From: a bacterium
GTDB lineage: Bacteria > Hydrothermota > UBA3073 > JACQXS01 > JAQTXJ01
Direction: 5' to 3'
Assembly: GCA_028716385.1 (NCBI GenBank)
Contig: JAQUPX010000003.1
Location: 62,001-126,000 of the forward strand
Length of the DNA stretch: 64,000 bases
The notes under the pieces are model-generated. The model searched no databases. It saw only the letters and a list, made by a program, of their open reading frames with translations, and had not been told where the DNA came from. Each line of letters starts with the position of its first letter. Positions within the stretch are counted from its first letter, which is position 1. This document shows positions 42,611 to 49,694 of this stretch, in pieces. A program made the translations under genes and the position numbers.

Positions 42611-42822
42611 GGACGCAGATGAACGCAGATGGGCAGGATAAAAAAAGAAAAATTGAGAGTTTAAAAAAACGGATAACAAAATACGGAAAGATTAACCCAG
42701 CAGAGCTGGATAGGTATCTCTAAGGATTTCGTCCAAGAGCTTCCTAAAAAGGATAAAACAAAAATGATAATTGCAGAAAAAAGGATTTTAAAAATCATGA
42801 TAATCTGCGTTTATCTGCGTCC
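42611..42822. repeat. 212-bp unit bounded by 20-bp inverted repeats (19/20), MITE-like
   Basis: ggacgcagatgaacgcagat (42611-42630) versus atctgcgtttatctgcgtcc (42803-42822). Confidence 0.7.
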
Positions 42823-42847: not shown

Positions 42848-44017
42848 ATGAAATATTGTATAGCTTTTATAACAATATTGATATTGGGACTTTCCGGCTG
42901 TATGCCTAAAGACCAAATCAAACCGGCAGAAAAACCGATATCCCCGGATGCCGTAATGAAAACAATAGATTCTCTTTCCCAAATAGGATTTGAGTTCAAA
43001 ATAGAATTCAAAAATCCGAATGTCGCCGGAACTTCAAAAGGAATTAGCTTAAACAATAAAACTCAGGTTAATATAACACGTAAACTCGGTGCAGAAAAAG
43101 AAAAAAACAAACTTATCGGCATAGATGAAACGGAATACAGTCAGGTAAAAGGAAAATGGCAAACAGACACAAGAACCTTTGATACACAGCCAATTGAATT
43201 ACTTAAAACTATATGCGGACAGAAAGATTTTAAACTAACAGAACAAAAAAATGGATTCTTTGTGTATAGTTTTACACCAAATTTATTGTTTATGGACCCT
43301 GCCTCTATGGATAAACCTGAAACGACACAGGGATTTATTTATATAGATAATAAAACTCTAATGCCTGTTAAAGTAATTGCAAAAACAGAAACCGCATCGT
43401 GGAGTATGACAGTAAAAAATATGGGAAAAAAGTTTTATATTCGCAGTCCGAAAACTAAGTTGTGGAGTTTAATAATAAATACAAATAAACCAAAAGAGGT
43501 AATTAATATTTTGAAAAAAAGACTAAACTTATATGGAGTTGAAACACTAAACAGCCAGACAACCGACAAAAGCATAATCTTCCAACTTTATTCCGAAAAC
43601 GAATTAACGGGAAAGTTATTTCAATCGGGAAAAACAGAGCTTTATATTGCAGAATACCCGAAGCAATCCATTTATGAATTGTCCTCTTCCGAGGAAAAAG
43701 ATATTTGTTTTGTAAATAATGACCCCACTAAACCTATTTTATTAAAAAATAAGATAGAAACTAAACTAACAGGTACTGAACTGGATTCCGAAGGTAAAAG
43801 TGATGGGCAGACAGGCATTAAACTTAAATTCAATACTAATTTGCCTGAAACGACTAAGATAGCAATATTATGTGATAAAGAGGTCGTTGGATTCGTTCCA
43901 CAGACGTGGGGCAAGGAGTTAGAAATAAAATGCAGTAAAGAAACATCATTAAATATAAAATTTCCCTTGCCAGATAGTTGTTTAATTGCTAAGGTAACAC
44001 AAAAGTCTTTAAAATAA
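42848..44017 (+). CDS. Lipoprotein, LolA-like N-terminus plus SecD periplasmic-domain-like C-terminus
   Basis: Lipobox ILGLSGC; C-term EVINILKKRLNLYGVETLNSQTTDKSIIFQL, KPILLKNKIETKLTGTELD, IKLKFN, AILCDKEVVGFVPQT. Confidence 0.6.
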   Translation: MKYCIAFITILILGLSGCMPKDQIKPAEKPISPDAVMKTIDSLSQIGFEFKIEFKNPNVAGTSKGISLNNKTQVNITRKLGAEKEKNKLIGIDETEYSQVKGKWQTDTRTFDTQPIELLKTICGQKDFKLTEQKNGFFVYSFTPNLLFMDPASMDKPETTQGFIYIDNKTLMPVKVIAKTETASWSMTVKNMGKKFYIRSPKTKLWSLIINTNKPKEVINILKKRLNLYGVETLNSQTTDKSIIFQLYSENELTGKLFQSGKTELYIAEYPKQSIYELSSSEEKDICFVNNDPTKPILLKNKIETKLTGTELDSEGKSDGQTGIKLKFNTNLPETTKIAILCDKEVVGFVPQTWGKELEIKCSKETSLNIKFPLPDSCLIAKVTQKSLK

Positions 44018-44027
44018 AAAAAGAAAG

Positions 44028-45470
44028 ATGAAATTTATTGCAATTTTTATAACATCGTTTTTATTTATAACCGATATAAAAGCTGATACTAAAGTATGGG
44101 CATGGGGAGCTAACGCGGATGGGCAGCTTGGAATGGGAGATACTACTGCCCGCTGGCAGCCTACCCAGATAAACCTCCTGACTAATATTACCGCAATTTC
44201 AGCAGGAGATGGACATTCCCTTGCCTTAAAGTCTGACAGCACTGTATGGGCTTGGGGAACAAACAGTGAAGGAGAACTTGGCATTGGAAGTAGTGATTTT
44301 ACCCCCCACTCCACACCTGTCCAAACTCTTAACCTAACTAATATTATTGCAATTTCCGCAGGAACTATGCATTCTCTTGCCTTAAAATCTGATAGCACTG
44401 TATGGGCTTGGGGAGATAACAGCTACGGAGAGATTGGAGACAATACTAATGGTAACAAACGCGACCAGCCTGTCCGGACAAACCTCCTGACTAATGTTAT
44501 TGCAATCGCAGCAGGAATGCAGTATTCACTTGCTTTAAAGTCCGATGACACTGTCTGGGCTTGGGGAAATAATGGTTGTGGAGAACTTGGAGATAATTCT
44601 ACTACTGACCGCGATCAGCCCGTCCAAACAAACATCCTAACCAATGTTATTGCAATCGCAGCAGGAGGAGCAACAACAGGGTATGGACATTCGCTTGCCT
44701 TAAAGTCTGACGGAACTGTCTGGGCTTGGGGATATAACGGCTACGGACAACTTGGAATTGGAGATACTACTGACCGCTGGCAGCCTGTTCAGATAACCAT
44801 CCTGACTAATGTTTCTGCAATCGCAGCAGGAATGTTACATTCACTTGCCTTAAAATCTGATAGCACCGTGTGGGCTTGGGGATGGAACGCCTTCGGAGAA
44901 CTTGGAGATAGTACCACTACTGACCGCTGGCAACCGGTCAGGACAAACATCCTGAATAATATTATTGCAATCTCAACAGGGTATGCCCATTCGCTTGCCT
45001 TAAAATCTGATAGTACTGTATGGGCTTGGGGATATAACTATGCAGGCGAACTTGGAGATAGCACTACTACTACGCGCATTCAGCCTGTCCGGACAAATAT
45101 CCTGACTAATGTTTCTGCAATTTCCACAGGAGCTATGCATTCACTTGCCTTAGCAAACGGGCCAACGGCAGTTGAGCTTGAGCCATCGAATACTATGAGC
45201 TATCTCAATATAATGCCTACAATTGCATCACATCAATTTAATATTGAATATAATATTCCAAAAGAGATTAAATTACCGGTAAGTTTGAGAATTTATGACC
45301 AACTTGGTAGAGTTATACGAACACTTTTTGATGGAACATTAACTTGCGGACAACATACTACAACCTGGGATGCTTGCGACGAATATGGCAAACCTGTCCC
45401 GCACGGTTCTTATTTTTGTATACTTAAAACAAATTATATAGAAAGAAAAAAGGTAATTGTAATAAAATAA
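44028..45470 (+). CDS. Secreted RCC1-repeat protein (7 repeats) with C-terminal sorting-like domain
   Basis: Seven VWAWGxNxxGxxG units with HSLALKSDSTVWAWG spacers; C-term SLRIYDQLGRVIRTLFDGTLTCGQHTTTWDACDEYGKPVPHGSYFCILKT. Confidence 0.9.
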   Translation: MKFIAIFITSFLFITDIKADTKVWAWGANADGQLGMGDTTARWQPTQINLLTNITAISAGDGHSLALKSDSTVWAWGTNSEGELGIGSSDFTPHSTPVQTLNLTNIIAISAGTMHSLALKSDSTVWAWGDNSYGEIGDNTNGNKRDQPVRTNLLTNVIAIAAGMQYSLALKSDDTVWAWGNNGCGELGDNSTTDRDQPVQTNILTNVIAIAAGGATTGYGHSLALKSDGTVWAWGYNGYGQLGIGDTTDRWQPVQITILTNVSAIAAGMLHSLALKSDSTVWAWGWNAFGELGDSTTTDRWQPVRTNILNNIIAISTGYAHSLALKSDSTVWAWGYNYAGELGDSTTTTRIQPVRTNILTNVSAISTGAMHSLALANGPTAVELEPSNTMSYLNIMPTIASHQFNIEYNIPKEIKLPVSLRIYDQLGRVIRTLFDGTLTCGQHTTTWDACDEYGKPVPHGSYFCILKTNYIERKKVIVIK

Positions 45471-46820: not shown

Positions 46821-49694
46821 ATGAAAATCGCTTTTATTGGCATAGGCAATCCTCTTAAAGGCGATGATGGCGCAGGGCCGGAAATCATATCAAAAATTAA
46901 AAAATCCCCAAATCCACAATCCACAATCCCTGCCTACCGGTCAGGCAGGCAAAATCCAAAATTACTATTGTGGGACTGCGGGACTGTTCCTGAAAATTAT
47001 CTCGGGAAAATAATAAAAGAATCTCCCGATGTACTTATATTCGTTGATGCGGGGATTTTTAATGCTCCCCCCGGAACTATCAAACTTCTCAATCTAAATA
47101 ATATAGATACCAATTCCATTTCCACACACAGTCTTTCACTGGATTACATTATAAACTGGATTAAAACCGAGATTAAAACACAGGTGTTCGTAATAGGAAT
47201 TCAAGCAAAAAGCACCAACTTCGGAGACCCCATAAGCCGTGAAGTTAAAGAATCCATAAAGTTACTGTCTTCCAACAAAATAGGCGCAGAAATAACATTA
47301 AAAGGATTAGTTCAGGGAGTCGGAATGAGACCCTACTTGCACAAGTTATCAAATAAATTCTCACTAAAAGGCAGGGCAAAAAACTTTCCCGGCGGAGTGA
47401 AATTATGGGTAGAAGGGAACTTAATTGATGTATTACTATTCTTTGATACCTTAGACGGGAAAGATTCCCCGGCCCTTGCTAATATACTCGAAAAAGAACT
47501 ATTCTTCAAAACACCAAAATCCTTCAAGGAATTCAAAATAGAAACTAGCGATGAAATCGGAACCGATTTTGTTCTCATTCCACCGGACATAGCTATTTGC
47601 GACGAATGCCTTAAAGAGTTACAAAGCACTAAAGACAGAAGACATAATTATCCTTTTATAAATTGCATAAATTGCGGGCCCCGCTTTACTATCATCAAAA
47701 ATATCCCGTATGACCGCAAAAATACTACTATGCAGAAATTCACTATGTGCCCCAACTGCGCAAACGAATATAATAACATAAAAAATCGCAGATACCACGC
47801 TCAACCCAATGCCTGTTACGTATGCGGTCCTGACGTAGAAATATCCAAAAAATCAGGGAATAAAGCGCTGACGGAAACAATCAACTTATTAACAAAAGGC
47901 GAAATCATAGCGCTTAAAGGGATTGGCGGATTTCATCTTGTATGCGATGCTACTAATGAATCTGCCGTTAACAAACTGCGGAAACTAAAATCCAGACCTT
48001 TCAAGCCTTTTGCAGTAATGTGCTCAAGTATAGATAAAATAAAACAATTCGCAGAAGTCTCAAAATCGGAAGAAGAGTTATTAACTTCAAATAAAGCACC
48101 CATAGTGCTGTTAAAGAAAAAAAGTAGCAGTAAAATAGCCAAATCAATAGCTCCCGATAATAATTATATCGGCGTTATGTTAGCTTATACTCCCCTGCAT
48201 TACTTGATTGCCGATAAATTTCTATGTATCGTAGCCACAAGCGGAAACACAACGGATGAGCCTTTAATCAAAGATAACGCCGAAGCTAAAAATAAATTAT
48301 CCAAATTCACCAAAAACTTTTTGCTTCATAATCGCCCGATTGAAGTAAGATGCGATGATTCCGTGGTGAAATTTATATCAAACAAACCTGTTTTATTCCG
48401 GAGGGCAAGAGGTTATGCGCCTTTACCTGTAAAACTTCTTTCTACTTCTCCATCCATACTTGCCGTTGGAGCAGAATTGAAAAACGCTTTTTGCATTACA
48501 AGAGAAAACTTTGCGTTTTTATCCCAGCATATAGGAGACTTGAAAAACTACGAAAATTATGAAGTTTTCAAATCCACAATTGAACATTTCAAAAAACTTT
48601 TCAAGATAACCCCGGATATAATCGCTTATGATTTGCATCCCGAATATCTATCAACAAAATATGCATTGGAGTTATCGGGGAAAGACCTCACTAAAATAGG
48701 CATTCAACATCATTGGGCGCATATTGCAAGTTGTATGGCAGAAAACAATATTGATTCGCAGGTGATTGGCGTAGCATTTGACGGGACAGGATATGGAACG
48801 GACGGAAATATATGGGGCGGGGAATTTTTACTATGCACATACACGAATTTTGAACGAATAATGCATTTTAAGTATACGGGACTCCCCGGAGGAGATATTG
48901 CTTCCGTTGAAACCGGACGAATGGCAATGAGCTACTTGTTTGATATGTATGGAACATCCCGACGAGAAAAATCCCAAAAACTAATCTCTAAATGGAAAAA
49001 TTCCGACTTAATTTACAAAATGCTTGAAAATAACTTTAACTGCCCGCTAAGTTCAAGCGTAGGCAGAATATTTGATGCGGTAGCGGCTATAACGGACGTA
49101 TGTCAATTAAATACTTGTGAAGGTGAATCCGCGATGAAACTTGAAAAATTGGCAGAGGAATATATGAACCGTAGGGACATAGCGTGCTATGTCCCCGAAC
49201 CGTATACTTATAAAATAGTAACTCAATCCGCCTCAGGCGGATCCAGCTTGCCTGCCGATAGGCATGGCTTGAGGAATAAAAGTAACTCAAGCTTCCAGCT
49301 TGAAACTTCTAACCACAAGCAAGTCAACGCCACAGCGGACTCCGCAAAAGGCGGAGATGCTTGTGATACAATAGACATTTCCCCTACCATTACTGAAATA
49401 ATGTCTGAAGTCAACAAATCAACTCCTGCAGAAATATCTGCAAAGTTCCACTCCACAATCGCTCACATAGTAAAAGACGGGTGTATAAACATACGAAATA
49501 AATATGCTATAAGTAGAGTAGCATTATCCGGCGGCGTATTTCAAAATAAAGTTTTGACTGAGAGTGCCGTTAAATTATTAAAAGAAGAAGGCTTTGAAGT
49601 TTACACACATTCAATTGTCCCTCCGAATGATGGCGGAATATCGCTCGGACAAGCAGCAATCGCTCAAGCGCTTTATCTCAGCAAAGCTGGGTAA
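46821..49694 (+). CDS. hypF: Fusion of hydrogenase maturation protease (HycI/HyaD family) and carbamoyltransferase HypF
   Basis: N-term FIGIGNPLKGDDGAG...FVDAG...STHSLSLDYI; HypF acylphosphatase GLVQGVGMRPYLHKL; zinc motifs CDECLKEL, CINCGPRFTI, CPNCANEY, CYVCGPDV; Kae1-like GIQHHWAHIASCMAENN...GVAFDGTGYGTDGNIWGGEFL. Confidence 0.93.
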   Translation: MKIAFIGIGNPLKGDDGAGPEIISKIKKSPNPQSTIPAYRSGRQNPKLLLWDCGTVPENYLGKIIKESPDVLIFVDAGIFNAPPGTIKLLNLNNIDTNSISTHSLSLDYIINWIKTEIKTQVFVIGIQAKSTNFGDPISREVKESIKLLSSNKIGAEITLKGLVQGVGMRPYLHKLSNKFSLKGRAKNFPGGVKLWVEGNLIDVLLFFDTLDGKDSPALANILEKELFFKTPKSFKEFKIETSDEIGTDFVLIPPDIAICDECLKELQSTKDRRHNYPFINCINCGPRFTIIKNIPYDRKNTTMQKFTMCPNCANEYNNIKNRRYHAQPNACYVCGPDVEISKKSGNKALTETINLLTKGEIIALKGIGGFHLVCDATNESAVNKLRKLKSRPFKPFAVMCSSIDKIKQFAEVSKSEEELLTSNKAPIVLLKKKSSSKIAKSIAPDNNYIGVMLAYTPLHYLIADKFLCIVATSGNTTDEPLIKDNAEAKNKLSKFTKNFLLHNRPIEVRCDDSVVKFISNKPVLFRRARGYAPLPVKLLSTSPSILAVGAELKNAFCITRENFAFLSQHIGDLKNYENYEVFKSTIEHFKKLFKITPDIIAYDLHPEYLSTKYALELSGKDLTKIGIQHHWAHIASCMAENNIDSQVIGVAFDGTGYGTDGNIWGGEFLLCTYTNFERIMHFKYTGLPGGDIASVETGRMAMSYLFDMYGTSRREKSQKLISKWKNSDLIYKMLENNFNCPLSSSVGRIFDAVAAITDVCQLNTCEGESAMKLEKLAEEYMNRRDIACYVPEPYTYKIVTQSASGGSSLPADRHGLRNKSNSSFQLETSNHKQVNATADSAKGGDACDTIDISPTITEIMSEVNKSTPAEISAKFHSTIAHIVKDGCINIRNKYAISRVALSGGVFQNKVLTESAVKLLKEEGFEVYTHSIVPPNDGGISLGQAAIAQALYLSKAG
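46929..46949. repeat. Palindrome cctgcct-accggtc-aggcagg inside the HycI domain, in frame
   Basis: 7-bp arms; encodes IPAYRSGRQN. Confidence 0.85.
49174..49356. repeat. Cluster of palindromic elements inside hypF, in frame
   Basis: gggacatagc-gt-gctatgtccc (49174-49195); atccgcctcaggcggat (49226-49242); cttgcctgccgataggcatggc (49247-49268); caagcttccagcttg (49288-49302); ctccgcaaaaggcggag (49340-49356). Confidence 0.9.

Follow-up and report, generated by a model that had tools for sequence, protein, structure and literature searches.

A putative envelope lipoprotein with a SecD P1-type domain and its gene linkage to type IX secretion genes

How the cargo of the type IX secretion system (T9SS) travels through the periplasm between Sec and the translocon in the outer membrane is poorly understood. 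At the Sec exit, the P1 domain of SecD is thought to handle precursor proteins (PMC9508474), and the periplasmic domains of SecDF have been reported to contact the BAM complex, the core of which is an Omp85 protein (PMC8669966). The lipoprotein presented here contains a domain homologous to P1 and is encoded, in related genomes, next to genes of the T9SS and of an Omp85-type protein. In the literature searched, which was a part of the whole, no description of a lipoprotein with a SecD P1 domain was found.

The lipoprotein gene and its surroundings

The gene is located on the forward strand of the window, i.e., of the whole stretch of 64,000 nucleotides that was analysed, and comprises the following parts:

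42848–44017, + strand: lipoprotein gene, ATG at 42848 and stop at 44017, coding for 389 aa (from the ORF list)
42848–42901, + strand: signal peptide and lipobox LSGC, with Cys18 as the predicted lipidation site, followed by Met (from the sequence and the family tally)
42935–43453, + strand: N-terminal domain, residues 30–202, possibly of a LolA/RseB-like fold; its weak match to a LolA profile is above all shuffles
43454–44014, + strand: C-terminal domain, residues 203–389, a homologue of the periplasmic domain P1 of SecD; the P1-base part comprises approximately residues 216–247 (KEVINILKKRLNLYGVE..SIIFQL) and the P1-head part approximately residues 295–389

A signal peptide with a lipobox cysteine, by which bacterial lipoproteins are recognised, is thus present in the window protein. 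The first-pass annotation was accurate in this respect: the lipobox LSGC with Cys18, the motifs that it quoted and the coordinates that it gave for the gene are all found in the ORF. A lipobox is present in most relatives as well, and was not seen in L021. Asp never follows the cysteine in those family members whose lipobox was recognised, and this, by the enterobacterial rule, which may not hold in this phylum, predicts localization in the outer membrane. The protein is most likely an envelope lipoprotein that is attached to the periplasmic face of the outer membrane.

The gene occurs in a single copy in its genome, and the product of its counterpart in a sister genome (L031) is 89% identical. 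Comparison of the two genes gives a dN/dS of 0.16, with 65 of the 112 differences located in third codon positions; such purifying selection, together with the existence of the sister copy, indicates that the gene is real and functional. In both genomes it is situated between cutA and a LeuC/aconitase-type gene. Linkage to rfaE1 and cutA in relatives, which the first-pass annotation had proposed as a check, held only in part: cutA precedes the lipoprotein gene within the genus but not beyond it, and the linkage to rfaE1 is not conserved. The window's genome also has a PorU-type gene (C3:173249-176980) and an Omp85-type gene (C2:334614-337454), both unlinked to the lipoprotein gene; since the three genes are scattered in the window's genus, their association is invisible from the window alone.

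Several other elements lie close to the gene. Between it and the LeuC/aconitase-type gene, the window carries a gene for an RCC1-repeat protein with a FlgD-Ig/T9SS-type tail (44028–45470), which is missing from that position in the sister genome and whose linkage to the lipoprotein gene is not conserved. The segment of ca. 210 bp that separates cutA from the lipoprotein gene (42611–42822) has a 20-base inverted repeat at its bounds (GGACGCAGATGAACGCAGAT, with one mismatch), and a 241-base query across this segment gave 48 matches in the genome, itself included, which identifies the segment as a dispersed repeat element. At 46821–49694 there is a single ORF of 957 aa, in which a hydrogenase maturation protease (HycI) is fused to HypF.

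The two domains of the lipoprotein

When the window protein is searched by itself, no entry of Pfam, NCBIfam or PDB is matched significantly, and the protein stays below the gathering cut-off of the Pfam family SecDF_P1_head (PF22599). That cut-off is exceeded by two relatives, L021 and L022 (61.7 and 69.1 bits vs. 27), which also match the NCBIfam secD model across both base and head; the cut-off of the latter model (TIGR01129, 244.4 bits) is missed by the best relatives (44.8 and 63.7 bits), and the window protein does not match it. When a profile of 31 C-terminal halves of the family was compared with 177,635 PDB sequences, the best matches were SecDF entries, with the P1 domain of Thermus SecDF (3aqo) at E 7.9e-10; profile positions 14–189 were aligned to 25–224, that is to nearly the whole of the isolated P1 domain. 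After three members that match SecD on their own were left out, 3aqo was still the best match, at E 6e-5.

The C-terminal halves were also compared, profile to profile, with P1 of SecD from the same phylum (hhalign, whose E-values are rough and each refer to a single comparison), giving E 2.8e-4 without the three SecD-like members; the N-half profile gave nothing in the same comparison. The score of the C-terminal half exceeded those of all 100 column shuffles and of one reversed control, and crossed controls did not exceed theirs. With the closest relatives alone, the stretch aligned to SecD P1 was KEVINILKKRLNLYGVETL..SIIFQL, the P1-base segment already named in the first-pass annotation. 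The resemblance to SecD P1 claimed there is borne out over base and head by way of the family profiles, the single protein being without a significant match; similarity to P1, the absence of which had been named as the outcome that would speak against the claim, was present at the family level.

Hydropathy shows no transmembrane helix past the signal peptide of the window protein, vs. six in the SecD controls from the phylum; a few relatives (L009–L013) carry a single hydrophobic segment around residue 315, within the head. The true SecD of the window's genome is encoded separately (G000:C4). Judged by its sequence, the protein is one that contains a SecD P1 domain yet is no SecD.

The N-terminal half had been read as a LolA-like domain, for which the evidence is only suggestive. 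Compared with LolA of the same phylum, it gives an hhalign probability of ca. 3%, the absolute significance being nil, yet the score is above 100 of 100 shuffles and a reversed control, and crossed controls do not exceed theirs. The N-half profile has no match in PDB and the N-domain no significant profile match to the LolA family (PF03548), and comparison with Pfam yields weak, scattered matches, including MucB_RseB in 2 of 34 members at E 0.1. The Pfam names MtrC-MtrF_N and DUF2996 were rejected, both being below the cut-off and common to at most 2 of the 34 members. A LolA-like fold of this half is plausible from the profile comparison; an AlphaFold2 model made from two sequences had a pLDDT of 40.

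Gene neighbourhood and distribution in the phylum

Inspection of the neighbourhoods in 20 relatives revealed a recurring gene set around the lipoprotein gene. The downstream neighbour codes for a protein of ca. 1270 aa comprising Propeptide_C25, Peptidase_C25 and a T9SS tail. Two of these neighbours were tested and exceed the NCBIfam PorU equivalog cut-off (436 and 484 bits vs. 420), and two residues, H795 and C830, which are presumably the catalytic His and Cys of family C25, are invariant in the alignment of the porU-type neighbours. The upstream neighbour, of ca. 940 aa, combines Peptidase_MA_2, a PD40 propeller and an Omp85 barrel. In some genomes a gene of the PorV family follows, and in some a gene for a GT2 glycosyltransferase lies in between. 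The fusion of Peptidase_MA_2, PD40 propeller and Omp85 barrel, an outer-membrane protein (e.g., L095:1498-4284 and G000:C2:334614-337454), is found in 137 of the 147 genomes of the phylum.

A porU-type gene is located no more than 5 kb from the lipoprotein gene in 59 of the 82 genomes that have the latter, always on the same strand and in 58 cases downstream, so that linkage to a T9SS gene is conserved outside the window's genus. In 37 genomes the Omp85-type gene is the immediate upstream neighbour in the same orientation, mostly separated by 2–60 bp. At least one of the two partners is linked in 75 genomes and both in 21. The seven genomes without either link comprise three in which the lipoprotein gene is near a contig end (G020, G031 and G059), G124 and G119, and the window's genome with its sister. 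In a taxonomic family without the lipoprotein (f7), the Omp85-type gene directly adjoins a C25 peptidase gene, at L159 (G131:C36) as well as in G038:C12 and G016:C2, so that the two are linked even where the lipoprotein is missing.

The lipoprotein family was detected by profile search as a single copy in 82 of the 147 genomes of the phylum and in none of the other 65; the weakest matches of the profile (E 5e-5 to 6e-4; ORFs of 525–807 aa) are SecD/SecDF genes themselves, e.g., those in G048:C30, G017:C23 and G028:C23, each positive for SecDF_P1_head. Presence of the lipoprotein is nearly all-or-none per taxonomic family, and a search for hidden family members beside the porU or Omp85-type genes of the lipoprotein-less genomes gave only chance-level scores. 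Of the 147 genomes, 145 have a PorU-type gene, 137 the Omp85-type gene and 137 SprA_N, the last of these indicating that the T9SS translocon is present. The occurrence of PorU and SprA suggests that the phylum belongs to the FCB group or is close to it. As the lipoprotein is lacking in 65 genomes, almost all of which possess PorU, SprA and the Omp85-type gene, it is optional and no obligatory part of the T9SS, and its absence argues against a general requirement for it in T9SS secretion.

The window's genome has the marks of a T9SS host, i.e., the PorU-type gene, an SprA_N match (C1:576497-577000) and at least 36 sorting-tail matches. Across the phylum, the density of T9SS-tail candidates, counted as loose first-pass matches, has a median of 51 per Mb in genomes with the lipoprotein vs. 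33 in those without; by taxonomic family the medians are 54 and 33 per Mb, respectively (p 4e-4, the families not being phylogenetically independent). The highest number of first-pass T9SS-tail candidates in the phylum, 401, is that of the window's genome.

Possible role and relation to known systems

The P1 domain detached from the Sec machine and the position of the lipoprotein gene beside that of the PorU sortase in related genomes suggest a helper, not described before, which passes proteins from the periplasm to an outer-membrane export route. The chances seem to us evenly balanced that the protein is a lipoprotein of the type IX (PorU)/Omp85 export route whose P1 module holds or hands over polypeptides. 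A stand-alone P1, being without the proton channel of SecDF, would be unable to pull. It could bind unfolded or partly folded Sec-exported proteins, be they T9SS cargo or the products of the porU- and Omp85-type genes, and would keep them export-competent or docked at the machine in the outer membrane. A second binding surface may be offered by the N-terminal domain, whose fold is perhaps LolA-like and lipid- or peptide-binding. Most simply, the protein would be a passive factor that holds or docks polypeptides on their way from Sec to the export machine of the outer membrane, its clients being either T9SS cargo at large or its partners in the operon. A more specific scenario can be put forward only tentatively: P1 may have left the translocase of the inner membrane for a lipoprotein of the outer membrane, and this lipoprotein would take over Sec-exported polypeptides and hand them to SprA/PorU or to the Omp85-type machine in lineages with many T9SS cargo proteins.

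The immediate vicinity of the partner genes, with the Omp85-type gene immediately preceding in the same orientation, mostly at 2–60 bp, in 37 genomes and porU adjacent in 59, would also suit an assembly factor serving only these partners in the operon (the peptidase-MA/propeller/Omp85 protein, or else PorU) and not T9SS cargo generally. Such a restriction is rather unlikely, given that nearly all genomes devoid of the lipoprotein possess both partners, so neither of them generally needs it, and that the link between the lipoprotein and the number of tail-bearing proteins is easier to reconcile with a role for cargo in general. Homology to P1, which in SecDF is considered to do its work where proteins leave Sec (PMC9508474), could point to the inner membrane, where the protein would form a second P1 at SecYEG/SecDF and keep long secreted proteins from sliding back or aid their release, its connection with the T9SS arising solely through abundant cargo; however, sec genes are linked in none of the 20 neighbourhoods and the lipobox cysteine is not followed by Asp, a sign of outer-membrane localization under the enterobacterial rule, and we consider this location improbable.

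An accessory role in lipoprotein export by the Lol pathway, exerted through the LolA-like N-terminal domain, had been suggested in the first-pass annotation. Against the score of the N-terminal half above 100 of 100 shuffles with same-phylum LolA, and an order of elements which, as the alignment suggests, is LolA-like, stand the hhalign probability of 3% with no absolute significance, the lack of a PDB or Pfam match, and a conserved neighbourhood without any Lol gene; a function in the Lol pathway is therefore highly unlikely, and the reading as a lipoprotein-export accessory is not supported by the partners that are conserved, namely PorU, the T9SS sortase, and an Omp85-type protein. It is hardly conceivable that the protein is a degenerate copy of SecD, or resembles it by chance, with no role of its own. 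The single window protein, without a significant match, might give this impression, but purifying selection, retention of a single copy across many families, conserved linkage and significance at the family level largely refute it.

If the protein does act as a helper of the T9SS/Omp85 export route, a SecD P1 domain would be able to work without its proton-driven membrane part. A P1-bearing lipoprotein with its gene beside that of the sortase offers a direct candidate for the step in which T9SS cargo crosses the periplasm.

Among the known systems, the LolA/RseB/LppX superfamily offers a possible fold for the N-terminal half, with a like order of elements and no significant sequence or profile match. 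To our knowledge, a SecD-type domain has been described in no known T9SS component (PorU, PorV, PorQ, PorZ, PorK, PorW or PorE). SecD is not mentioned in four papers on the T9SS (PMC7463736, PMC8754138, PMC10202324 and PMC9143113). With the attachment and sortase module of the T9SS (PorU, PorV, PorQ and PorZ), the lipoprotein is connected through its gene, which has PorU as a conserved neighbour and in some genomes also lies by PorV-family genes, and with PorK, PorW and PorE it has in common that it is likewise an envelope lipoprotein. In SecD and SecDF (PF22599; 3aqo, 3aqp and 5xam), P1 base and head are homologous to its C-terminal half, most clearly in L021 and L022, whereas the six transmembrane helices, and hence the proton path, have no counterpart in the lipoprotein, where TM1 of SecD is replaced by a lipid anchor together with an additional domain at the N-terminus.
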